This document shows positions 7,755-34,106 of a DNA stretch of 34,106 nt, one piece after another. Positions within the stretch are counted from its first letter, which is position 1, and each line of letters begins with the position of its first letter. The DNA comes from a virus. The DNA is taken from the IMG/VR virus record IMGVR_UViG_3300032246_000095, positions 1-34,106 of that record. One strand, 5' to 3'. Below the pieces are notes generated by a model, which was not told where the DNA came from, ran no database searches, and saw only the letters and a list, made by a program, of their open reading frames with translations. The position numbers were made by a program, and so were the translations under genes.

Positions 7755-8120
7755 ATGAAAAATGCCGAAGTTGCGGAATTTATTGCTACCCTGTTTCACG
7801 CAGGGACAATTACGCATTTCCAGCACTTACAGACCCGTGAATATCCTGTGCATAAAGCACTAGGAAAGTTCTATCCTAAGATTGTTGACTTAGCTGACAG
7901 CCTGGCAGAAAGCTACCAAGGCCGCTACAACACCCGCATGGAGCGTTTTCCTGATGAGCTACATCAGCCGCAGGAAAGCCCAACAGACTACCTGACCCAG
8001 CTTAAGGGTTTTGTAGAGGAAGCAAGGCAAGAAATCCCCCAAGATACTGAATTGCAGAATTTGGTGGATGAGATTGCCGATTTGATCAATTCAACCCTTT
8101 ATCTCTTAACCCTTAAGTGA
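7755..8120 (+). CDS. Helical-bundle protein (DUF5856-like, ferritin-like)
   Basis: 121 aa. VAEFIATLFHAGTITHFQHL, QTREYPVHKALGKFYPKIVD, LADSLAESYQGRYN, and a last helix LVDEIADLINSTLYLLTLK. Glu and His are spaced along amphipathic helices in the way of Dps- or ferritin-like proteins, and the FHxxTxxHxxHLxTxxYxxHKAL motif is what I remember of DUF5856 from aquatic phages. Metal binding is inference. No ribosome site precedes the ATG. First gene after the early terminator. Confidence 0.6.
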   Translation: MKNAEVAEFIATLFHAGTITHFQHLQTREYPVHKALGKFYPKIVDLADSLAESYQGRYNTRMERFPDELHQPQESPTDYLTQLKGFVEEARQEIPQDTELQNLVDEIADLINSTLYLLTLK

Positions 8121-8334: not shown

Positions 8335-8340
8335 AAGCGA

Positions 8341-8373
8341 AAACCCCACGGTGTGCAGACCGCAGGGCTTTCT
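8341..8373 (+). terminator. Weak hairpin, possible terminator or attenuator
   Basis: CCC (8344-8346) and CGGT (8349-8352) can pair with ACCG (8359-8362) and GGG (8365-8367) around a 2x2 internal loop, loop GTGCAG; followed by CTTTCT. The T tract is short. Confidence 0.35.
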
Positions 8374-8395: not shown

Positions 8396-8629
8396 ATGGC
8401 TGATCGGAATTGTAAAACTTGCGAGTTCTTTAAGAACCAGCAAATCATGGGCATTTGCAGACGCTACCCCATGCACAACAACAAACATGAAAATGATTGG
8501 TGTGGTGAACACACGCTAAAAATGGTGGAAGTTATACCGCTTCAGGTGTACGACATCACCACAGACCAAACCACCGAAGTCAAAAAACGCAAATACGTGA
8601 GGAAGCCAAATGCTCAAGCCGCTGCGTGA
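8396..8629 (+). CDS. Four-cysteine zinc-binding small protein
   Basis: 77 aa. Cys6, Cys9, Cys21 and Cys36 (CKTCEFF ... GICRRYP ... NDWCGEH) form a probable zinc knuckle in the first half; the tail (KKRKYVRKP) is very basic. AAAGGA ribosome site. The GxCRRxP ... ENDWCGE pattern is common in aquatic phages. Nucleic-acid binding is plausible but not shown. Overlaps the GroES-like gene by 20 bases. Confidence 0.65.
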   Translation: MADRNCKTCEFFKNQQIMGICRRYPMHNNKHENDWCGEHTLKMVEVIPLQVYDITTDQTTEVKKRKYVRKPNAQAAA

Positions 8630-8867
8630 TCGTGTGGTAGTACGTCCCCAAGTACGTACATTGTCTGAAATCATCTATGTGGACAACAAAGAACCCTTTA
8701 ATGAGGGTACAGTCATGTCTGTAGGCCCAATGGTGACAGAAACCCAAGTGGGTGACTTCATCAAATACGGCAATGGCGACTACCTGAAGTGGCCTACCCA
8801 TATGATTGACGGTCAGATGTATCAAATCATTCAAGAAGCGGACATTTGCGCCGTTGTGGAGGCTTAA
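8610..8867 (+). CDS. GroES-like co-chaperonin (Cpn10 family)
   Basis: 85 aa, slightly shorter than bacterial GroES (about 95-97). Pattern: KPLRDRVVVRP at the N-terminus, FNEGTVMSVGPM (the beta-barrel GxVxxVGxG region), VGDFIKYGNGDYLKW and YQIIQEADICAVVE at the end, as in Cpn10. The mobile-loop region (about residues 17-29, RTLSEIIYVDNKE) differs from bacterial GroES but keeps an EIIY hydrophobic tripeptide where GroES has its GroEL-contacting IVL. It would cap host GroEL to fold a phage protein, as T4 gp31 does for the coat. Start chosen for its GAGGAAG ribosome site. Confidence 0.8.
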   Translation: MLKPLRDRVVVRPQVRTLSEIIYVDNKEPFNEGTVMSVGPMVTETQVGDFIKYGNGDYLKWPTHMIDGQMYQIIQEADICAVVEA

Positions 8868-9029
8868 ATGGCAAAACAAGGGCTTTATGCCAACATCCAT
8901 GCCAAGCAAGAGCGCATCGAGCGCCAAAAAGCTGCAGGCAAGACCCCTGAACGCATGAGAACGCCAGGCTCAAAAGGCGCACCTACGGCAGCAGCGTTCA
9001 AGCAATCTGCCAAAACCGCCAAGAAATAA
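8868..9029 (+). CDS. Conserved 53-aa basic phage protein
   Basis: Begins MAKQGLYANIHAKQERIERQ and ends with KGAPTAAAFKQSAKTAKK. Highly basic, helical at the start, then disordered. Starts right at the stop of the GroES-like gene (TAAATG). I recognise the xKxGLYANIHAKxxRI ... GAPTAxAFKQxAKTAKK pattern from many aquatic phages; function unknown, nucleic-acid binding or a virion role are possible. Confidence 0.75.
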   Translation: MAKQGLYANIHAKQERIERQKAAGKTPERMRTPGSKGAPTAAAFKQSAKTAKK

Positions 9030-9031
9030 TC

Positions 9032-9310
9032 ATGGCTACTAAAAAGCACGACAAGCCCATACCGCACAAGACCACGGGTAAGGGCAAAACCTACAACCCT
9101 ACGGAAAAAGGCGCAGGAATGACCGCTAAAGGTCGTGCTGAATACAACGCCAAGAACAACGCAAACCTAAAACCACCCGCACCCAATCCCAAAACAAAAG
9201 CCGATGCAGGTAGAAAAGCATCATTTTGTGCAAGAATGGAGGGGGTAGTTAAAAACGCCAAAGGCCCAGCAGAACGGGCCAAGGCATCCCTTAAAAACTG
9301 GAATTGTTAA
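9032..9310 (+). CDS. Basic protein of the DUF6321 type
   Basis: 92 aa. Lys-, Gly- and Ala-rich: KGAGMTAKGRAEYNAKNNAN, then KASFCARMEGV and the C-terminus LKNWNC. GLTAKGRxxYN ... KSFCARM ... WNC is the signature I associate with DUF6321, a family common in marine and freshwater podoviruses upstream of structural genes. Function not known to me; the basic, proline-rich composition suits DNA or RNA contact. Confidence 0.7.
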   Translation: MATKKHDKPIPHKTTGKGKTYNPTEKGAGMTAKGRAEYNAKNNANLKPPAPNPKTKADAGRKASFCARMEGVVKNAKGPAERAKASLKNWNC

Positions 9311-9903: not shown

Positions 9904-10012
9904 GGCCAACATCAAAAAAGAGATAGAAGCAGGTAAGCCACCTAAACAAGCGGTGGCTATTGCCTATTCTGTGCAGCGTAAGGCCAAAGAAGACAAAAAG
10001 CCCAAAAAGTGA
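9866..10012 (+). CDS. 48-aa basic phage protein (KQAVAIAY type)
   Basis: [20 protein letters not shown] then [20 protein letters not shown] and a Lys-rich end. The NIKxExxAGKPxKQAVAIAxxxxRKA pattern is very common in phages and prophages as a small basic protein of unknown function. CAGGAG ribosome site lies inside the previous gene. Its stop overlaps the GTG start of the methyltransferase (GTGA). Confidence 0.7.
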
Positions 10013-11223
10013 AAATTACCCAAAAGAAGGTCACAGAGCTAATTCCATATGTAAAAAACAGCCGCACCCATAGCGATGAGCAAGTGGCTCAAATAGCGGC
10101 AAGCATTAAGGAATTTGGCTGGACTAACCCAATACTGGTAGACGGTTCAAACGGCATCATTGCAGGGCATGGCCGCCTCATGGCTGCACGTAAGCTAGGC
10201 TATACAGAAGTTCCAACCATTGAGCTTGCAGACCTAACCGAAACCCAAAAAAAAGCCTACATCATTGCCGACAACCGCCTGGCGTTAAACGCAGGGTGGG
10301 ACAATGAAATGCTGACCATCGAGCTTAACGACTTGCTGGCAGATGGCTTTGCGTTAGAAATATTAGGCTTTGACCCTAAAGAGCTTGATGCGTTGCTCGA
10401 GCCTGAAATGGTAGAGGGGCTAACGGATGAGGATGCTATCCCTGACGTTCCTGAAGAGCCTAAGACCAAGCTAGGCGACATTTACCAATTAGGCAAACAC
10501 CGCCTGATGTGCGGGGATTCCACAAGCATTGACGCTGTGGATAAGTTGATGCCCGAAACGGCTAATATGATCTTTACCGATCCTCCATATTTGATGGACT
10601 TTACTGGTGGCATCCATGCGGACGGTAGTAAATCGTTTAATTCAAAACATGGCGGTATCAAAAACGACAAAATGTCGGAAAAGGATGGCAACGACTTTTT
10701 GGACGCTATAAATAGCGTAATAACATCTAAAGTTGACGGTGCGTTTTACATAACCTTTTACCGTTTAGGCATCAACAAGTACTTTGCTAGTATGGATCGA
10801 ACAGGCCTTAAATGCCGTTCATTGGTAATTTGGGATAAAGGCAATCACACACTAAGCAATAGTGATTACATGAGCATGTATGAGCCTATGTTCTATGGGT
10901 GGGTGAACAATCATAAATTTTATGGCGGTAAAAATGGAATGGATATTTGGCGAATCAAACGAACAGCCAAAAACGATTTACACCCCACAATGAAGCCTGT
11001 TGAATTGGTTGAAAAAGCTGTACTGGACGGAAGCGCAATTAACGGTATTGTGTTGGGTTTGTTTGGTGGTAGCGGCAGCACTATGATTGCTTGCGAAAAG
11101 CAAAACCGACACGCTAGGCTTATGGAGCTAGACCCAAAATATTGCGATGTAATCGTAAGGCGGTGGGAAGACTTCACGGGCAAAAAAGCCGTTCTTTTGA
11201 CAGAAACGACAGAAACTGCTTAA
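10009..11223 (+). CDS. ParB/Srx-domain fused DNA methyltransferase (N6-adenine or N4-cytosine, beta class)
   Basis: 404 aa from a GTG. Residues 1-110 form a ParB/sulfiredoxin-like domain ([46 protein letters not shown]). The methyltransferase domain has catalytic motif IV DPPY at residue 191 and the S-adenosylmethionine motif FGGSGST at 352, followed by [20 protein letters not shown]. Motif IV before motif I gives a beta-class order. No restriction enzyme is adjacent, so it is an orphan, expected to protect phage DNA from host restriction or mark it. The ParB-like part may supply a DNA contact. It lies directly upstream of the terminase genes. Confidence 0.9.
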
Positions 11224-11248: not shown

Positions 11249-11599
11249 ATGCCAATCATTCCCCAAGAGGCTCATCAGCCAACCGAAGAAACTAAAAAGC
11301 TGGTCGAAAGCACCAGCGGGTTGGGCTTGCCTCACGAGCAAATAGCCATATTGGTTGGTATAGACGACAAGACCCTGCGGAAGTATTACCGTGCTGAGCT
11401 TGATATGGGGAAGGCCAAAGCCAACGGGCAGATAGCCAAGACGCTATTCAGCAAGGCCACTAGCGGCGACACCACGGCCCTGATTTGGTGGACTAAGACC
11501 CAGCTAAAGTGGGCTGAAACCGTCAAACAGGAAATAACAGGTAAAGACGGTGAGCCGTTGCAGGGCATACAGGTTAGCTTTGTGAAGCCAAATGAGTGA
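11249..11599 (+). CDS. terS: Terminase small subunit
   Basis: 116 aa. N-terminal helix-turn-helix (GLGLPHEQIAILVGIDDKTL and RKYYRAELD) for pac-site recognition, then a helical oligomerisation part (KANGQIAKTLFSKATSGDTT, ALIWWTKTQLKWAE). The pattern is that of phage terminase small subunits with this HTH. The start at ATG 11249 has no obvious ribosome site. It overlaps the large subunit by 8 bases, so the two are translationally coupled. Confidence 0.88.
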   Translation: MPIIPQEAHQPTEETKKLVESTSGLGLPHEQIAILVGIDDKTLRKYYRAELDMGKAKANGQIAKTLFSKATSGDTTALIWWTKTQLKWAETVKQEITGKDGEPLQGIQVSFVKPNE

Positions 11600-12863
11600 T
11601 GTCCAAGACGCAATAGCAAGGGCAGAATTCCCAATCAAGCTAGAAGGCTTGTTTAAGAAAAGCCGTTACAAAGTCTTACACGGCGGCAGGGGTGGAGCAA
11701 AGAGTTGGGGCATAGCTAGGGCGCTTTTAATCTTAGGGGCAAAAAACCCCATCCGCATTCTGTGCGCCCGAGAGTTCATGACTTCCATGCGGGATTCGGT
11801 ACACAAGCTGTTGTGTGACCAAATCGAAAGCCTGGGACTGCTCAACTTCTACGAAATCACCCAAGCCAGCATTAGGGGCAAGAACGGAACAGAGTTTGCG
11901 TTTGTTGGCCTTAAGAACAACGTAGCCAACGTCAAATCTTATGAGGGCATAGACATTTGTTGGGTTGAAGAAGCCCAAACAGTTAGCCGTCTGAGTTGGA
12001 ACGTCCTAATCCCAACCATCCGTAAGGCAGGTTCAGAGATATGGGTGAGCTTCAATCCCGAGCTAGAAACGGATGAAACCTACCAGCGGTTTGTAGCCAA
12101 TCCCCCTGAAGATTGCATTTCAATGCGGGTGAACTGGTACGACAATCCGTGGTTTCCCGAAACCCTGCGGATGGAAAAGGATGCCCTAAAAGCAAGGGAT
12201 GAGGAAGCCTACAACCAGGTTTGGGAAGGGTTGTGCAGACAGACGGTGGACGGGGCTATCTTTGCCAAAGAAATGCAGCAGGCAGAAAAGGATGGGCGCA
12301 TCACCAAAGTGCCTTATGACGCTACCAAGCCTGTCCATGCCGTATTTGACTTAGGTTGGTCTGACAGCACCGCCATTTGGTTTCTGCAGTTTGTGGGCAT
12401 GGAAACTCGCCTGATTCGGTACATAGAAGACAGCCAAAAGACCATCAGCTTCTACCTGGCCACCATGCAAACCTTTGGCTATGTGTACGAAACCATTTGG
12501 CTACCCCATGACGCTGAGAACAAAACCCTAGCGGCGGCAGGGCGCAGCATTGACGACATTGTTAGGGCGGCAGGCTTTAAAACCAACATCTTGCCTAGAG
12601 TGCCAATCCTAGACTCCATCAACGCTGCTAGGACGATATTCCCTAACTGCTGGTTTGACCGTGAACACGCTGCCGATGGCTTGGCCTGTCTGCGGCACTA
12701 TCGGTATGACGTTGACCCCGACACCAAGCAATTCAGCCGCAACCCCCTACATGATCATTACTCACACGGTGCTGACGCATTTAGGTACATTGCGCTTATG
12801 ATTAAAGAACCTGTTAAACGCAAAAAACAGCAAGTAGCAACCGCTGGCTCATGGATGGGATAA
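11592..12863 (+). CDS. terL: Terminase large subunit (Terminase_3/PBSX type)
   Basis: 423 aa. ATPase and nuclease that pumps DNA into the prohead and cuts it. Walker A GGRGGAKS (residues 31-38), Walker B ICWVEEAQ (about 122-129), coupling motif near VSFNPE, then an RNase H-like nuclease with FDLGWSDSTA (about 253), DAENK, and HGADAFRY near the end as the acidic triad. Shorter than P22 gp2 (499 aa), but a usual length for this family. This type is associated with headful packaging, which fits a circularly permuted genome without cohesive ends. Confidence 0.95.
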   Translation: MSDVQDAIARAEFPIKLEGLFKKSRYKVLHGGRGGAKSWGIARALLILGAKNPIRILCAREFMTSMRDSVHKLLCDQIESLGLLNFYEITQASIRGKNGTEFAFVGLKNNVANVKSYEGIDICWVEEAQTVSRLSWNVLIPTIRKAGSEIWVSFNPELETDETYQRFVANPPEDCISMRVNWYDNPWFPETLRMEKDALKARDEEAYNQVWEGLCRQTVDGAIFAKEMQQAEKDGRITKVPYDATKPVHAVFDLGWSDSTAIWFLQFVGMETRLIRYIEDSQKTISFYLATMQTFGYVYETIWLPHDAENKTLAAAGRSIDDIVRAAGFKTNILPRVPILDSINAARTIFPNCWFDREHAADGLACLRHYRYDVDPDTKQFSRNPLHDHYSHGADAFRYIALMIKEPVKRKKQQVATAGSWMG

Positions 12864-12866
12864 AAC

Positions 12867-14990
12867 ATGGCATACCAAGACACAAACAACGACAAAATCA
12901 CCGAAGCCATCAAGTTTTGGCGCTTGGTGAATGATTCTGACTCTACTAACCGAGCCGAAGCCCTGCAAGACGTTAGGTTTGCAGCAGGCGACCAATGGCC
13001 CGTAGAGATTCAAAACAGCCGTAACCTTGAATCACGTCCATGCCTGACCATCAACAAGATTGATGCCTACATCCGTCAGGTAACCAACCAGCAGCGGATG
13101 CAGCGCCCCCGCATCAAAGTTCACCCTGTGAATAATCTGGCTGATTACAAAATCGCCCAAGTTATTGAAGGCATCACCCGCCATATTGAAACAAATAGCA
13201 ACGCAGACACCGCTTATGACACCGCCTTTGACTATGCGGTAAGGATGGGTTGGGGTTATTGGCGTGTCAACTACAAATACGTTAGCGAAGACAGCTTTGA
13301 CCAAGAAATCTACATAGACGCTATTGACAATCCGTTTACCGTTTACTTTGACCCTAACAGCGTCCGACCTGATGGCTCTGATGCCGAGCGATGCCTAATC
13401 ACTACGGTTTTGGACAAGAAGATATTTAGGGAAATGTACCCAGGCGCTGACGATGGGGCTAACTTCCAACAACGCAGTACGGGTGACGACACCGCTTCTT
13501 GGGTAACCAAGGAAGACATACGCCTTGCTGAATACTTCTACATCGAGCGTGAAAAGGCTAGATTGTTTCTATTGAGCGATGGCACAAGTGCATTTGCCGA
13601 TTCCGACAGCTTTTTTGAGCGTGTAGAAGCCGCAGGGCTAACCGTTGTGGATGAGCGTGACTCATTCCGTAAGGCCGTGAAGTGGTGCAAGATGACCGCT
13701 ATGGAAGTCTTGGAGGAAAAGACCTGGGCAGGCAAATACATTCCTATTGTGCCTTGCTATGGCGCACAGGTCATTGTGGACGACAAACGCAAGAAGTACG
13801 GTTTAGTGCGGTTTGCCAAAGACCCGCAGCGGATGTACAACTTTTGGCGCACATCCATGACCGAATCCGTGGCATTGGCTCCAAAAGCCAAATGGCTGCT
13901 TGCAGAAGGTCAGGATGAGGGTCATGAAAACGAATGGGCAATGGCAAACATCAAGTCTATGCCTGTGCTGCGTTACAAGCAAAAAGACATTGAGGGTCAG
14001 CCTGCCCCTGCGCCACAACGGTTGCAACCCGAGCCGCCACCCGCAGGCATCATGGAAGCCGCTGGCGCTATCTCTGCCGACCTACAGATGGTGTTGGGCA
14101 TCCTAGACCCTAACCAACTGCCAAGCGGCAACATATCGGGCAAGGCATTGATGGGGCAACAAAACCAAGTTGACCTGTCTAACTTCCATTTCTACGACAA
14201 CATGACCCGTTCCATTAAACACACGGGCAAAATCATCCTAGACCTAATTCCTAAAATCTACGACACCCAACGTGTCATGCGGATTATTGGTTCAGATGGT
14301 CAACCTGACATGACAGTTATTAATGAGCGTAGCGCAATTGGTGAGGTCTTGAATGATGTGACCGTAGGCGAATACGATGTAGTGATGGACACAGGCCCAG
14401 GCTTCCAATCTAGACGACAACAAGCAGTAGAAGCCATGATGCCCCTGCTTACAGGCAATGCCGAGCTATTCAATATTGCGGGTGACCTAGTATTTAGGAA
14501 CATGGATTTCCCTGGCGCAGACGTGATTGCTGACCGCCTAGCCGCCTTGAACCCAATGGCGCAGATTGATGAAAAATCCGATATACCGCCTGAAATTCAG
14601 ATGAAATTGGCTCAATCCCAAAAGATGATTGAGGAACTTCAACAGCAGTTACAGGCTGCAGGGTTGGAGATTAACAACCGTATGCAAGTGGCGCAGATCA
14701 AAGAGGAAGGCGCTACCAAGCGCAAACTCATGGATGTGACCGCAAAAGCGCACAACACCGAAACAATGGCAGAGGTTCGGGTTAATGACCAAAACACCCG
14801 CAGCGTTACAAGCCAAAACAAGACTGAGATTGATGCGTTGGTCAAAATGCTTATTGCAAGAATGCCGCCTGACCAATTGCTTGCTGAGATTGAACGTTTG
14901 AATGCGGAGCAGTTTGGATTTGCCCAAGTTGCAGCACAAGATATTAGCCAAGGCGCAAGCCCATTTGTGCAGCAAGAAAATTTAATGTAA
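12867..14990 (+). CDS. Portal protein (P22 gp1 family)
   Basis: 707 aa, against 725 in P22. Dodecameric ring at the packaging vertex. Recognisable stretches: KFWRLVNDSDSTNRAEALQD, FAAGDQWPVEIQ, RPCLTINKIDAYIRQVTNQQ (family N-terminus), the WGYWRVNYKY strand, and SGKALMGQQNQVDLSNFHFY. The C-terminal 120 residues are a long Gln- and Glu-rich helix, corresponding to the barrel that extends into the P22 head. Starts 3 bases after the terminase stop. Confidence 0.95.
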   Translation: MAYQDTNNDKITEAIKFWRLVNDSDSTNRAEALQDVRFAAGDQWPVEIQNSRNLESRPCLTINKIDAYIRQVTNQQRMQRPRIKVHPVNNLADYKIAQVIEGITRHIETNSNADTAYDTAFDYAVRMGWGYWRVNYKYVSEDSFDQEIYIDAIDNPFTVYFDPNSVRPDGSDAERCLITTVLDKKIFREMYPGADDGANFQQRSTGDDTASWVTKEDIRLAEYFYIEREKARLFLLSDGTSAFADSDSFFERVEAAGLTVVDERDSFRKAVKWCKMTAMEVLEEKTWAGKYIPIVPCYGAQVIVDDKRKKYGLVRFAKDPQRMYNFWRTSMTESVALAPKAKWLLAEGQDEGHENEWAMANIKSMPVLRYKQKDIEGQPAPAPQRLQPEPPPAGIMEAAGAISADLQMVLGILDPNQLPSGNISGKALMGQQNQVDLSNFHFYDNMTRSIKHTGKIILDLIPKIYDTQRVMRIIGSDGQPDMTVINERSAIGEVLNDVTVGEYDVVMDTGPGFQSRRQQAVEAMMPLLTGNAELFNIAGDLVFRNMDFPGADVIADRLAALNPMAQIDEKSDIPPEIQMKLAQSQKMIEELQQQLQAAGLEINNRMQVAQIKEEGATKRKLMDVTAKAHNTETMAEVRVNDQNTRSVTSQNKTEIDALVKMLIARMPPDQLLAEIERLNAEQFGFAQVAAQDISQGASPFVQQENLM

Positions 14991-15043: not shown

Positions 15044-15940
15044 ATGTCGGAAGTTGCAGAAAGACTTGCTGCCAATGTGGTGACAAGTGAAAATTTAGCT
15101 GAGTTCAATGCTAAAAAAATGGGTTTAGCTGATAGAGCGCCTGCCGAGGCTGTAGTTGAGAATGCTCCTACAGAGCCGACAGAAACGTCAAATCAGAGTG
15201 AGCCGAAAGCTGAGAGTGAAGCGACAGCAACAGAGGAAAAAAAGAATCCTAAGTTGGAAAAGCGGTTTTCAGATATTACCAAGCAACGCGAAGAAGCTAG
15301 GGCAGAAGCCAAGCGGGAACGGGAAGCAAGGGAATCTTTGGAAGCACGGTTAAGGGAACTTGAATCTAAGGCACAACCAAAAGCGCCTGAAGCTGCAGAG
15401 GAACCTAAACCTGAACAGTTTAGCGATATGTACGAATATGCGAAAGCATTGACGGACTATCGGGTAGAGCAGAGGTTACAAGAGGAAAAGGTTAAGGAAT
15501 CTCAGGCAAAAGCTGAAGCGGAGCGCCAAAAAGTGATCAACACTTGGTCAGACCGTGTTAAAGCAGCCAAGTCTGAAATGCCTGATTTTGAAGACATGGT
15601 GGGGTCTGCTGACGTTGTTGTGAGCAACGAAGTGCGTGACGCTATCTTTGAATCAGAAGTTGGGCCAAGAATCCTGTACCACCTTGCGGAAAACCCTGAA
15701 ATTGCCGAAAAACTGCAAGGTATGACCGTAACAAGTGCTTTAAGAGCTATTGGGAAACTTGAGGCGCAGTTTGAAAAGACTGAGGCCAAACCTGTTGTTG
15801 GTAGAAGTAAAGCGCCAGCGCCGATAAACCCAATCAAATCGGCTGCTAACGGACGCGATGTAAACCTGACTGCCGATGGGCAATTTCATGGTTCATATCA
15901 GTCTTGGAAAGCAGCACGTTTGGCAGGGCGAATCCGCTAA
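15044..15940 (+). CDS. Scaffolding protein (P22 gp8-like)
   Basis: 298 aa, against 303 in P22. Highly charged and helical, rich in Glu, Ala and Lys (long stretch about 50-180), with no catalytic motif. The C-terminus has the basic, compact segment expected to bind coat (KSAANGRDVNLTADGQFHGS and YQSWKAARLAGRIR). The place between portal and coat is the P22 order. It directs prohead assembly and leaves the head before DNA enters. Confidence 0.88.
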   Translation: MSEVAERLAANVVTSENLAEFNAKKMGLADRAPAEAVVENAPTEPTETSNQSEPKAESEATATEEKKNPKLEKRFSDITKQREEARAEAKREREARESLEARLRELESKAQPKAPEAAEEPKPEQFSDMYEYAKALTDYRVEQRLQEEKVKESQAKAEAERQKVINTWSDRVKAAKSEMPDFEDMVGSADVVVSNEVRDAIFESEVGPRILYHLAENPEIAEKLQGMTVTSALRAIGKLEAQFEKTEAKPVVGRSKAPAPINPIKSAANGRDVNLTADGQFHGSYQSWKAARLAGRIR

Positions 15941-15964: not shown

Positions 15965-17212
15965 ATGAGTAATCAGCTTTTGACGATTTCAATGATCACA
16001 AATGAAGCTTTGATGGTCTTGGAAAACGAATTGACTTTCTCTAGCGAAGTCGAGCGTAACTATGACGACCAGTTCGCTGTGTCAGGTGCAAAAATCGGTA
16101 ACACCCTGAACGTTCGCCGTCCAGGTCGTTTTATCGGTACTACAGGCCCCGCTTTGAACGTTGAAGACTTCAACGAGACTAGCGTACCTGTTACCTTGTC
16201 CACACAGTTCCACGTTGACACCCAATTCACTAGCCAAGACTTGGCTTTGTCTTTGGATATGTTCTCTGACCGTGTTCTGAAGCCTGCTGTTGCCGCCGTA
16301 GCCAACAAGATTGACTTTGACGGTTTGACCATGGCCAAGAACAGCACCGCCAACATCGTTGGTACTGCTGGCACACCCCCCACATCCTTGCTGACCTACC
16401 TGACCGCAGGCGCTTACTTGGATGCTGAAGGCGCACCCCGTGATGGCCGCCGTTCATGTATCGTTGAGCCCTTCACAGGCGCAACCATTGTGGACAGCCT
16501 GAAAGGTTTGTTTGTTCCATCCGATGTGATTGGCAAGCAATACCAAAAAGGCATGATGGGCCGTGACTCTGCTGGCATGAACTGGAAGATGGATCAGAAC
16601 GTTGTGAACCAAACATTCGGTTCCTACGCTACTGCCACCCTGTCTTGCAACACTTCCACAGGCACAGGTTTCCTGTCCACAGGTTGGGCGCAAACTTCCA
16701 CTATCGCATTGACCGCAGCTACAGCTACCGCTGGCCTGCAAGTTGGCGATGTGATTCAGATTGCTGGCATCTACGCTGTCAACCCACAGAACCGTTCTGC
16801 TTATGGTTCAGGCAAGCTGCGTAACTTTGTTGTGACTCAAGCCACCACCGTGGCCACATCAGGCACAACTTCCGTTACCGTTAGCCCTGCCGTTATCACA
16901 GGCGGTCAGTTCCAAAACGTGACCGTGACCAGCACCAGCAGCACCGCTGTAGTGACCCCGTTCAACAACACAGGTACTGTTAGCCCACAGAACATCGTGA
17001 TGCACAAAAATGCTTTCACTTTGGCTACTGCTGACTTGGAACTGCCTGATGGCGTGGTATTCGCAGGTCGTGCTTCCGATAAGGAACTTGGTCTGTCCAT
17101 GCGTGTTGTGCGTCAGTACACCATCAACAACGACTCCATTCCTACCCGTGTGGACGTTCTGTATGGTTGGGCGCCCCTGTATCCTGAACTTGCCTGCCGT
17201 GTTGCAGCTTAA
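15965..17212 (+). CDS. Major coat protein (P22 gp5 family)
   Basis: 415 aa, against 430 in P22. HK97-type fold. N-terminus ITNEALMVLENELTFSSEVE, then GNTLNVRRPGRFIGTTG and FTSQDLALSLDMFSDRVLKP, which are family landmarks. The Thr- and Val-rich stretch at about 240-335 fits the inserted telokin-like domain of P22 coat. Good AAGGA ribosome site 24 bases after the scaffold stop. Confidence 0.93.
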   Translation: MSNQLLTISMITNEALMVLENELTFSSEVERNYDDQFAVSGAKIGNTLNVRRPGRFIGTTGPALNVEDFNETSVPVTLSTQFHVDTQFTSQDLALSLDMFSDRVLKPAVAAVANKIDFDGLTMAKNSTANIVGTAGTPPTSLLTYLTAGAYLDAEGAPRDGRRSCIVEPFTGATIVDSLKGLFVPSDVIGKQYQKGMMGRDSAGMNWKMDQNVVNQTFGSYATATLSCNTSTGTGFLSTGWAQTSTIALTAATATAGLQVGDVIQIAGIYAVNPQNRSAYGSGKLRNFVVTQATTVATSGTTSVTVSPAVITGGQFQNVTVTSTSSTAVVTPFNNTGTVSPQNIVMHKNAFTLATADLELPDGVVFAGRASDKELGLSMRVVRQYTINNDSIPTRVDVLYGWAPLYPELACRVAA

Positions 17213-17237
17213 TCATTAACATTTAGGAGTAACTATC

Positions 17238-17660
17238 ATGGCAAATCCAGGCGCAGCAACCACCGTAACCAATCACCCAAGTAATTTGGCAACCAATCAA
17301 GCCTTGCGCTTGATCGCCTCTGCACAAGGTGTGAACATGAACCTAGTAGCCGACACCGTTGCACCCATTTTGGTTGCAGGTAACGTCAGCGTACAAAGCA
17401 TTATTGTTGCCAACGCAAGCACCAGCTTGACCACCGCACAATTGGCTGTGTACACAGGCCCAGGCGCAACAGGTACAGCCGTTAAATCTGCATATGCATT
17501 GTCGGGCAATAGCTCGACTACCGCAGTTGTGGTGACAGCGGCAACTTCTACCAACTCGATTACAAGCACACCCTTGTATATTCGCAACACTACCGTTCAA
17601 GGCGCAGCAGCTACCGCTGATGTGTTCATCTACGGTTACGACCTGACTTTCCTGCCCTAA
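17238..17660 (+). CDS. Small beta-rich virion protein after the coat (decoration candidate)
   Basis: 140 aa, Ala-, Thr- and Val-rich with regular strands (LVADTVAPILVAGNVSVQSI, AQLAVYTGPGATGTAVKSAY, AADVFIYGYDLTFLP). AGGAG ribosome site. It lies directly behind coat and before a terminator, so it is probably made in high amount. A head decoration or head-completion role is the natural guess; no family match that I can name. Confidence 0.6.
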   Translation: MANPGAATTVTNHPSNLATNQALRLIASAQGVNMNLVADTVAPILVAGNVSVQSIIVANASTSLTTAQLAVYTGPGATGTAVKSAYALSGNSSTTAVVVTAATSTNSITSTPLYIRNTTVQGAAATADVFIYGYDLTFLP

Positions 17661-17680
17661 TCAGGCATGAAATAACTAGG

Positions 17681-17715
17681 AAGGCCATCCTCAAAAGGGA
17701 TGGCTTTTCTTTTTT
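17681..17715 (+). terminator. Rho-independent terminator after the coat operon
   Basis: AAGGCCATCC pairs with GGATGGCTTT (10 base pairs including one G:T) around a 7-base loop, followed by TTTTCTTTTTT. Confidence 0.88.
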
Positions 17716-17722
17716 GTAAGTC

Positions 17723-17728
17723 TATAAT
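17723..17728 (+). promoter_or_regulatory. -10 box of a promoter for the fibre cluster
   Basis: TATAAT, 8 bases after the terminator T tract; predicted start near 17735, ribosome site AAAGGGA at 17740-17746, ATG at 17751. The -35 region (around 17700-17706) falls in the terminator stem and is poor (TGGCTT), so the promoter may need an activator. This repeats the terminator-then-promoter arrangement at 7714-7748. Confidence 0.5.
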
Positions 17729-17750
17729 TTGACGACTGAAAGGGATAGTC

Positions 17751-18014
17751 ATGTCCAATTACGCACAAATTTCTGCAACTTCTTTGGTGAAAAACCAACC
17801 TGGCAAGCTAAAAGGCATTTTTGTCAGCACAGTTACCAGCAGCCCCACCATCACCATTTACGATGCCCAAACTGCTGATACAAGCGTCAAAATCATTGAC
17901 ACGTTCACCATGACTGCGGCAACAAACCTGATTTTTTTTGATGGGATTAACTGCGAAAACGGCCTGTATGTCGTGATTAGCGGAACTGCAAGCCTGACCG
18001 TTTACTTTGAGTAA
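17751..18014 (+). CDS. Small beta-rich virion protein (fibre cluster start)
   Basis: 87 aa: LVKNQPGKLKGIFVSTVTSS, PTITIYDAQTADTSVKIIDT and ATNLIFFDGINCENGLYVVI. A compact beta-sandwich is likely. Similar small proteins often precede fibre genes in freshwater phages. It is the first gene after a strong terminator and a new -10 box. Confidence 0.6.
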   Translation: MSNYAQISATSLVKNQPGKLKGIFVSTVTSSPTITIYDAQTADTSVKIIDTFTMTAATNLIFFDGINCENGLYVVISGTASLTVYFE

Positions 18015-18017
18015 ACC

Positions 18018-20078
18018 ATGACCACAGCGGTCACGCAGACCATCAATTTTGTTCCTGTGCAGGGCGTTTTTGCGCCCGAGCCTACCTATGCCCTGCAATA
18101 CTTTGTCGGGCCTGCGGGTACGCCTTTCTATGGCCCTGCAAACGCATCGTTTACCAACATCAGCACGGTAACAGGAACAATCACCACAACCCCTGTTGGC
18201 GACACCGACATTGCCAACAAAGCCTATGTGGATTCCGTAGCCCAAGGCTTGGACATCAAGGCATCGTGCGTGTATTCCACTACAGGCAACATCACGTTGT
18301 CAGGTCTTGGAACTCAGGCAGGGGGTGATTGGCCTAGCACATTAACCGCAGGCGATAGGGTTTTGGTAAAAAACCAAAGTTCCAGTCAGTTTAACGGTAT
18401 CTATGTGGCGGCGGCAGGGACTTGGGCTAGGTCTGCAGACATGAATGTGTGGGCAGAAGTGCCATCCGCATTCACGTTTATCCAAACAGGCACAACGTTG
18501 GCTGACACGGGTTGGGTGTGTACCGCCAACAAAGGCGGCACAATTGATGTGACCGCTATGCCGTGGTCGCAGTTCAGCGGTGCGGGGTCTTATCTTGCAG
18601 GCACAGGGTTAACCCTAACAGGCAATACATTTAGCATTACCAACACAGGCGTTACCGCAACGGCCTATGGGTCTGCATCGAATGTTGGCACGTTTACCGT
18701 TAACGCACAGGGTCAAATCACCACCGCTGCTAACGTCAGCATAGCGATTGCAGCTAGCCAAATCACCAGCGGCACGATTGACACAGCCCGTATATCGGGA
18801 AGCTATACAGGCATTACGGGTCTTGGCACGTTGACAGGTTTAACTGTAACTAACCCAATATCAGGGTCGATTACAGGCAATGCAGCTACGGCAACATCTG
18901 CAACAAATCTTGCAGGGGGAACGGTTGGTGCAATTCCCTATCAAACTGGCTCTAGCGCAACAACATTTTTGAGTGCTGGAGCAAATGGGCAAGTTTTAAC
19001 GTTGGCGGGTGGTATTCCCTCATGGGCAACACCGACCACAGGAACGGTCACATCAGTAGCCCAAACATTTACGGGCGGCATCATTTCTGTTGGCGGCTCA
19101 CCCATCACCACAAATGGCACTTTGGCGTTGACGGTGGCAGGTACAAGTGGCGGCATACCTTATTTCACAAGTACATCTGCCTGGGCATCATCTGCGCTTT
19201 TGGCGGCAAATGCTTTGATGGTTGGCGGCGGGGCTGGTGTAGCGCCTAGCACGGTCACAACAGGCACGGGGGTAGTTACAGCCCTTGGTGTAAATACAGG
19301 CTCTGCTGGCGCTTTTGTGGTGAATGGCGGGGCGTTGGGTACTCCATCAAGCGGCACGGTCACTAACCTGACGGGTACAGCCGCAATTAACATTACAGGC
19401 ACGGCTAGTAATTTGGCAGCCGGTGCGGCGGCTTCTATTCCATACCAATCCGCAGCGGGAACTACAGCGTTTTTAGCGTCTAGCGCAGGGGATGCCAACA
19501 AAGTTCTGCAATCTAACGGCACAAGTGCGCCAAGTTGGGTAACTCCCACCGCCTATGCCACGGTTACAGACGACACCACCACCAATGCGGTGCGGTATCC
19601 CTTGTTTGCAAACCAAACAACGGGCAATCTGACCACAAATTACGTCAGTTCCACAAAATATAACTTCAACCCAAGCACAGGATTGTTGACCGCAACAGGG
19701 TTTAGCGGGTCGGGTGCTAACCTAACAAGCCTGCCTGCGGGTCAGTTATCAGGCACTATTCCTAGTGGCGTATTGGGCAATTCAAGCCTTTACATAGGCA
19801 CAACTTCTATTGCCCTAAATAGATCAAGCGCCAGCCAATCCCTGACAGGCGTGAACATTGACGGGTCAGCAGGGTCTGCGACTACAGCAACAACTGCTAC
19901 CAATGCAACCAACGTGGCAATTACGGATGACACCAGCACGGCAACCGATATGTATCCTACTTGGGTGACTACCACCACAGGAAATTTGCCAATGAAGGTA
20001 TCATCCACTAAACTCAAATTTAATCCATCCACAGGCGTTTTGACCGTAATAGGTGGAACAGGCGGGGGCACATTCTGA
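18018..20078 (+). CDS. Large repetitive tail fibre protein
   Basis: 686 aa, extremely rich in Thr, Gly, Ser and Ala. Residues 70-200 (NKAYVDSVAQGLDIKASC, VLVKNQSSSQFNGIYVAA) are a conserved fibre module. The middle contains repeated triangular-fibre motifs (GTxGGIPYxTSxSAxAxS, GGALGTPSSGTVTNLTGTA). Near the C-terminus two copies of an approximately 50-residue repeat appear: DDTTTNAVRYPLF with VSSTKYNFNPSTGLLTATGF, and DDTSTATDMYPTW with VSSTKLKFNPSTGVLTVIGG. It ends GGTGGGTF. There is no visible chaperone domain. Probably a trimeric fibre shaft. Confidence 0.8.
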   Translation: MTTAVTQTINFVPVQGVFAPEPTYALQYFVGPAGTPFYGPANASFTNISTVTGTITTTPVGDTDIANKAYVDSVAQGLDIKASCVYSTTGNITLSGLGTQAGGDWPSTLTAGDRVLVKNQSSSQFNGIYVAAAGTWARSADMNVWAEVPSAFTFIQTGTTLADTGWVCTANKGGTIDVTAMPWSQFSGAGSYLAGTGLTLTGNTFSITNTGVTATAYGSASNVGTFTVNAQGQITTAANVSIAIAASQITSGTIDTARISGSYTGITGLGTLTGLTVTNPISGSITGNAATATSATNLAGGTVGAIPYQTGSSATTFLSAGANGQVLTLAGGIPSWATPTTGTVTSVAQTFTGGIISVGGSPITTNGTLALTVAGTSGGIPYFTSTSAWASSALLAANALMVGGGAGVAPSTVTTGTGVVTALGVNTGSAGAFVVNGGALGTPSSGTVTNLTGTAAINITGTASNLAAGAAASIPYQSAAGTTAFLASSAGDANKVLQSNGTSAPSWVTPTAYATVTDDTTTNAVRYPLFANQTTGNLTTNYVSSTKYNFNPSTGLLTATGFSGSGANLTSLPAGQLSGTIPSGVLGNSSLYIGTTSIALNRSSASQSLTGVNIDGSAGSATTATTATNATNVAITDDTSTATDMYPTWVTTTTGNLPMKVSSTKLKFNPSTGVLTVIGGTGGGTF

Positions 20079-33625: not shown

Positions 33626-33846
33626 TGGACAATCAGCAAATTTTTAACATCGTGGTGAGCTTTGCAGGCTTTTTGGCTGGCTGGGTGCTCAATAACATCA
33701 CCAAAGGTCTGTCACGTTTGGAAGATAGACTAGAAGAATTCCCGCAGCGTTACGTGGCTAAAGACGACTACCGCAGGGACATTGACGAGCTAAAAGAAAT
33801 CTGTAAACAGATTTTCGACAAGCTGGACAAAAAGGCTGACAAGTGA
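33625..33846 (+). CDS. Small membrane-anchored coiled-coil protein, copy 2
   Basis: 73 aa, ungapped diverged copy of the gene at 659-880 (64 of 73 residues identical). Same hydrophobic segment and same charged tail; changes cluster after the membrane segment. It directly follows the last ejection gene (TAATGG overlap), whereas copy 1 follows a collar fibre gene. Confidence 0.75.
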   Translation: MDNQQIFNIVVSFAGFLAGWVLNNITKGLSRLEDRLEEFPQRYVAKDDYRRDIDELKEICKQIFDKLDKKADK

Positions 33847-34106
33847 TTGAACAAGCTGCCAAAGCCATAGGAGCAGTTGCTGCGGCGGTGGCGGCAATAG
33901 GCGGGTCTTACACGCTTGCTGACAAGATGGGGCTATTTCGTGACCCTATCTTGAAGTGGTCGCCTGAGCATTTTCAAATTTCTAGCGGTAAAGCCAATGG
34001 CGAGTTTAAGGTGGTGGTGGCTCGACAAAAGATTCGGGATGACTGTGAAGTCACTAATTTCAAAATCGAGGTCAAAGATGCGGATTTTGTCGTCCATCCA
34101 GCCGCG
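33843..34106 (+). CDS. Membrane-anchored beta-rich protein, copy 2 (3' end cut by the window)
   Basis: 88 residues remain, starting from a GTG where copy 1 (877) has ATG. Ungapped alignment to 877-1140. The first 156 bases differ at scattered, mostly silent positions; the last 108 bases (33999-34106) are identical to 1033-1140. In a circular reading the gene continues at 1141. Confidence 0.7.
   Translation, partial: MIEQAAKAIGAVAAAVAAIGGSYTLADKMGLFRDPILKWSPEHFQISSGKANGEFKVVVARQKIRDDCEVTNFKIEVKDADFVVHPAA
33999..34106 (+). repeat. 108-base exact direct repeat of 1033-1140 at the window end
   Basis: Identical from GGCGAGTTTAAGG to CATCCAGCCGCG. It is the exact part of a 482-base ungapped similarity (33625-34106 to 659-1140). 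Mismatches resume directly upstream (AT at 33997-33998 against GC at 1031-1032). Confidence 0.9.

Follow-up and report, generated by a model that had tools for sequence, protein, structure and literature searches.

The 85-residue protein encoded at positions 8610-8867 of the viral record IMGVR_UViG_3300032246_000095 (34,106 bases, analysed at its full length and hereafter called the window) is, on the combined evidence of profile matches and a predicted structure, a phage co-chaperonin of the GroES/Cpn10 family. We put at roughly 0.6 the probability that it caps the GroEL of the host, in place of or next to the host GroES, for the folding of the P22-type coat protein encoded in the same record. 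The window carries a P22-like portal, a P22-type coat and a scaffold (Table 1), and its gene content is consistent with a podovirus. Head-closure, tailspike-like, lysozyme, and ERF and YqaJ recombination genes are among its other genes, and no tRNAs were found in its 34,106 bases. At each end of the record a reading frame runs off open (33843-34106 and 1-657), and the two would join in phase in a circular record.

Table 1. Genes of the window from position 7755 through the coat gene, in their order along the record, with segments of the co-chaperonin
Feature	Position	Strand	Basis or remark
DUF5856 protein	7755-8120		Pfam
68-residue open reading frame
Four-cysteine protein, 77 residues, basic tail	8396-8629	+	Last 20 nt shared with the start of the co-chaperonin gene
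Phage Cpn10/GroES-like co-chaperonin, 85 residues	8610-8867	+	PF00166, phrog_3188, AlphaFold2 model, PDB matches, purifying selection
Putative mobile-loop segment, residues 14-32	8649-8705	+	Alignment with E. coli, Burkholderiales and T4 proteins
Hydrophobic tripeptide I21-I22-Y23	8670-8678		In place of I-V-L or I-V-I of GroES
Shortened roof turn, residues 40-47	8727-8750	+	8 residues instead of 17
Conserved protein, 53 residues, downstream neighbour of the co-chaperonin	8868-9029	+	phrog_16028
DUF6321 protein, downstream neighbour	9032-9310	+	Pfam
138-residue protein
55-residue open reading frame
ParB-N / N6-N4 DNA methyltransferase fusion	10009-11223	+	Pfam, PHROGs
Terminase small subunit	11249-11599	+	phrog_309
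Terminase large subunit	11592-12863	+	PF04466
P22-like portal protein	12867-14990	+	PF16510, 590 bits
Head scaffolding protein	15044-15940	+	phrog_8865
P22-type coat protein, 415 residues, presumed main folding client	15965-17212	+	PF11651, 116 bits

Family membership and predicted fold

The open reading frame starts with an ATG at 8610, immediately preceded by a purine-rich aggaag, and runs for 85 codons on the plus strand to a stop that ends at 8867. Purifying selection marks it as a real gene, the overall pN/pS being 0.18 over 71 distinct nucleotide sequences, a ratio that is approximate like those that follow, as synonymous sites are near saturation (pS 0.61). By part, the ratio is 0.20 in the mobile loop, 0.58 in the roof turn, which is the most variable segment, and 0.12 in the rest of the protein. 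The product matches the Pfam Cpn10 family (PF00166) with an E-value of 1.1e-7 and 32.2 bits, above the curated cut-off of 21.1 bits, across profile positions 2-93 of 93, and it matches the PHROGs family phrog_3188, 'co-chaperonin GroES', with an E-value of 1.1e-8. A single-sequence phmmer search of the PDB retrieved GroES/Cpn10 chains only (best E-value 0.0019), and a profile built from 44 viral relatives retrieved co-chaperonin chains with E-values down to 1.5e-13. Profile-profile comparison with 21 bacterial GroES sequences, drawn from a family that holds a Burkholderiales bin, gave a probability of 99 and an E-value of 2.4e-18. Cpn10 was matched by each of 45 representatives of the phage family, and no other family was matched in them.

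An AlphaFold2 monomer model computed from the 44 viral sequences (pLDDT 85.1, pTM 0.75) has six strands and takes the Cpn10 beta-barrel fold. In a Foldseek search of the PDB with this model, all 31 matches with E-values up to 0.001 are GroES or Cpn10 (best E-value 2.3e-6), and T4 gp31 appears at rank 33. The top VIA-align match is likewise a Cpn10, with a Z-score of 11.3 and an RMSD of 2.4 over 82 residues, and gp31 scores between 8.0 and 8.3. Since the barrels of dehydrogenases begin at a Z-score of 7.8, the structural likeness to gp31 taken alone stands barely above background. Thus, the initial annotation, which had called the protein GroES-like and had proposed structure prediction as a check, agrees with the Pfam and PHROG assignments and with a monomer model for which GroES and Cpn10 rank first in the PDB.

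Mobile loop, roof turn and candidate hosts

Alignment of the window protein with E. coli GroES, a Burkholderiales GroES, T4 gp31 and other phage proteins shows that the N-terminal strand K-P-L-x-D-R-V and the C-terminal strand D-I-x-A-V-V-E are retained. The segment aligned with the mobile loop is 19 residues long, as against 23 in all 29 GroES sequences that could be parsed from candidate hosts (30 genomes of the family holding a Burkholderiales bin, one of which was not parsed), and it is 18-20 residues long in all 45 family representatives. All 55 unique close proteins have hydrophobic residues at positions 21 and 22, both of them Ile in 53. The hydrophobic tripeptide motif is therefore present, and GroEL binding through it is putative; we know of no role for the mobile-loop tripeptide other than GroEL binding. 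The view that the loop differs from that of bacterial GroES is thus borne out, both in length and in the replacement of I-V-I by I-I-Y.

The roof beta-hairpin of GroES is missing from the window protein in this alignment, the roof turn being reduced to 8 residues from 17. The hairpin is usual in bacteria but is also absent from gp31, and is hence not strictly defining for Cpn10/GroES. Among the 45 representatives, the roof turn has 8-10 residues in 33 and the bacterial length of 17 in the other 12, which accompany the same head genes. Accordingly, loss of the roof is not required for the role proposed below, and its interpretation as an adaptation to this particular coat protein is weakened.

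It had also been suggested that a comparison of the mobile loop with host GroES sequences could reveal the host. This expectation fails, because the loop hardly varies among the close phages and the candidate-host loops are themselves near-uniform (I-V-I in 27 and a length of 23 in 29 of the 29 parsed), so that neither side carries a host signal, and we reject this route to the host. A genome scan with the portal protein located two relatives, one in a Burkholderiales bin and one in a Fibrobacteres bin, which disagree and may be mis-binned; the co-chaperonin gene is carried by one of these two binned contigs.

Distribution, gene order and co-inheritance

The window protein, used as query against IMG/VR, found 434 stretches that encode relatives, and a relative 35% identical to it found 89; from each of these scans 80 were kept. 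A further scan with the portal protein yielded 80 loci, and the co-chaperonin gene lies upstream of the portal in 27 of the 27 close relatives that could be judged, namely those with at least 5 kb of upstream sequence; the other 53 were too short. Searches of named phage records with tblastn returned only two matches to the window protein. A whole-record profile search was applied to P22 and to 18 other P22-portal phages, chosen by hand from 232 matched, with T4 as a positive control that was detected. It identified Cpn10 in four of the 18 (MW202674, MW202520, Xanthomonas phage PBR31 and DSL-LC05) and found no Cpn10 match in P22 or in the remaining 14. Cpn10 genes also occur in unrelated phages, such as large Vibrio and Erwinia phages; GroES is described among the 13 core genes of the HTVC023P-type podoviral pelagiphages (PMC9599517), and a paper on a marine long-read virome likewise lists it (PMC6487183).

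The assertion of the initial annotation that a Cpn10-like protein is rare in phages of this size is contradicted by the 434 IMG/VR stretches, by its presence throughout the close clade, by PBR31, DSL-LC05 and the rest of the four P22-portal phages, and by the pelagiphage core gene, and we reject it. Such a co-chaperonin is not a luxury of large phages but part of the standard set in this clade of phages of about 34 kb. Our literature search found no paper on a GroES alongside P22-type heads, and neither GroES nor chaperon occurs in the main text of the PBR31 paper or of the Dishui Lake paper. Near-identical co-chaperonin genes were also observed at the two ends of one 38.8-kb contig (IMGVR_UViG_3300025598_000082; our loci L142 and L166), which probably reflects terminal redundancy or assembly.

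For the 33 loci in which both genes could be placed, the co-chaperonin gene starts 2.7-4.6 kb before the portal gene. A hand count of the loci that have 5 kb or more of downstream sequence puts terminase and portal near the co-chaperonin gene in every case, 44 of 44 among the close and 39 of 39 among the more distant ones. In PBR31 it stands just before the terminase, with one short gene between, and in DSL-LC05 the portal gene follows it directly. PBR31 shares 30% identity with the window in its terminase as against 55% in its coat and 46% in its portal, which indicates that the co-chaperonin gene tracks the head genes more than the terminase; the PBR31 paper also remarks on the unrelated terminase (PMC10975493). 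Distances between co-chaperonins correlate with those between portals (r 0.84) and between terminases (r 0.83) over 80 sequence sets, values reached in none of 500 permutations each, though for the portal a simple shared history would already be expected to yield as high a value over all 80. Within the 53 closest sets, the correlations are only 0.48 for the portal and 0.60 for the terminase. This co-inheritance with head genes fits a phage co-chaperonin that serves coat folding. The ParB-N/methyltransferase fusion, on the other hand, is found in only part of the relatives, sometimes elsewhere in the genome. In MW202674, the annotation splits the coat gene (16569-18084 of our locus L082) in two around a short open reading frame; the two parts correspond to residues 1-85 and 86-415 of the window coat, and the gene may be interrupted by an insertion, such as an intron or the like.

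Upstream of the co-chaperonin, an open reading frame of the four-cysteine type (about 65-90 residues, with a basic tail) is found in 171 of the 174 loci with enough sequence, as judged with a search motif derived from these same proteins. In 163 loci the end of this frame runs 4-20 nt into the co-chaperonin gene; in seven it stops 183 nt short of that gene and in one 2 nt short. Given the overlap, translational coupling of the two genes is likely. Four cysteines (C6, C9, C21 and C36) are invariant in 40 aligned proteins, in the pattern C-x2-C, G-x-C and C-G-E/Q. The protein fits no clear known family by its sequence: in the members of this type inspected against Pfam cut-offs, only a resemblance to HIPIP was seen, below the cut-off, a sequence search of the PDB gave no match, and its predicted model is poor (pLDDT 68, pTM 0.34). 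A functional partnership with the co-chaperonin is a guess. A scan of the window for sigma-70 promoters found four promoter-like sites as against 16.2 in shuffled sequence, and no claim of an operon therefore rests on it. A 14-pair hairpin at 8339-8372, upstream of the four-cysteine gene, is terminator-like on the minus strand only.

Proposed function and comparison with known systems

We propose that seven copies of the co-chaperonin would form a ring and that during infection this presumed heptamer would cap the host GroEL, either replacing the host GroES or working beside it. The P22-type coat protein, made in a large pulse, and perhaps portal or tailspike would thereby fold productively. 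No GroEL gene was seen among the window proteins scanned, so the co-chaperonin would need the GroEL of the host. Coat folding appears the likeliest role by analogy, given the gene order and the precedent of P22. The proposal is sensible in that the coat protein of P22 has been documented in vivo as a substrate of GroEL/S (PMC2267774, citing Nakonechny and Teschke 1998; PMC10986495); the initial annotation had invoked P22-family coats as GroEL/ES substrates, and on this point it agrees with the cited accounts and with the PF11651 match of the window coat. Several observations count against the proposal, among them the varied roof of the family, a loop that is shorter where that of gp31 is longer, and the weaker portal correlation within the close subfamily. 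P22 and 14 of the 18 other P22-portal phages lack a Cpn10 match, and P22-type coats can thus manage on the host GroES. Also, the co-chaperonin gene of this clade lies outside the head block, with some 3 to 5 kb between it and the portal downstream. Enlargement of the folding cage for an oversized coat is not favoured as an explanation: the P22 coat protein has 430 residues, and since the window coat, with 415, is no larger, the cage-enlarging rationale of gp31 does not apply here.

A broader take-over of GroEL, in which the phage lid outcompetes host GroES and the coat is just one client among many, is possible if somewhat doubtful. GroEL would then serve tail, replication and methyltransferase proteins, or would be kept going when host GroES falls short. 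Such a role would accord with the occurrence of Cpn10 genes in phages with otherwise unrelated genomes, among them the HTVC023P-type pelagiphages as described (PMC9599517) and the large Vibrio and Erwinia phages, and with the reported ability of gp31 to replace GroES for E. coli proteins (PMC6318259). The placement of the gene near terminase and portal in the clade, and its positions in PBR31 and DSL-LC05, point instead to head assembly. It is improbable that the protein acts as a decoy, binding GroEL without productive cycling and disturbing host folding or a GroEL-linked defence; a shortened and altered loop and a missing roof would suit such a function, but purifying selection has preserved both the hydrophobic tripeptide and the barrel, and nothing in the present analysis links the protein to defence. 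Reuse of the Cpn10 fold for another purpose, such as a virion or portal-associated protein, is very improbable, for while the family has diverged from E. coli GroES (24-29% identity), its genes lie near head genes and alcohol and quinone dehydrogenases, ranked further down in the fold searches, contain a related barrel, the loop tripeptide stays hydrophobic in all 55 unique close proteins and Cpn10 is the sole family matched in all 45 members.

Extending the preferred reading of a co-chaperonin for coat folding, one might suppose that the clade has freed coat folding from host GroES by fixing a short-loop, mostly roofless lid, its synthesis coupled in translation to that of the four-cysteine protein and perhaps controlled by it. 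We consider this extended scheme unlikely; if true, the co-chaperonin and the four-cysteine protein would constitute one head-folding module.

Compared with bacterial GroES/Cpn10, the window protein shares a match over the whole length of PF00166, the same predicted barrel and a hydrophobic loop tripeptide. It differs in being phage-encoded, in its 24-29% identity to E. coli GroES in structure alignments, in its loop of 19 rather than 23 residues and in the missing roof hairpin. With T4 gp31 it shares the phage origin, the Cpn10 fold and the lack of a roof hairpin, and gp31, which is described as replacing GroES and as required for folding of the coat protein gp23 (PMC6318259), is the precedent for coat folding. 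The two are only 14-18% identical in structure alignments and belong to different phage types, with different gene positions. According to the same account, gp31 lacks the roof loops and has a mobile loop of 22 residues as against 16 in GroES (PMC6318259). The gp31 loop is thus longer than that of GroES whereas that of the window protein is shorter, and of the combination that characterizes the gp31 family, a lengthened loop and a missing roof, the window protein has only the missing roof. The HTVC023P-type pelagiphages are, by their description, also podoviruses with GroES as a core gene (PMC9599517), but their genomes are about 59 kb and they form another lineage.

Other counterparts are the Manatee Spring phages MW202520 and MW202674, whose co-chaperonins are 38% and 35% identical to that of the window and lie in the same type of gene order; unlike the window protein, that of MW202674 and its kin has an insertion before D-E-Y-L and other loop residues. 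PBR31 (MT119766) and DSL-LC05 (OR003940) are P22-portal phages with coats 55% and 41% identical to the window coat and with co-chaperonins (Cpn10 matches of 64.7 and 30.5 bits) near terminase or portal. The PBR31 co-chaperonin retains a bacterial-type roof, unlike the window protein, and in both phages the gene annotated directly upstream of the co-chaperonin is other than the four-cysteine protein. As the P22 coat uses the host GroES and these relatives carry a lid of their own, the group provides a natural contrast for learning under what conditions a phage requires a GroES of its own, a question that the cultured relative PBR31 makes testable.
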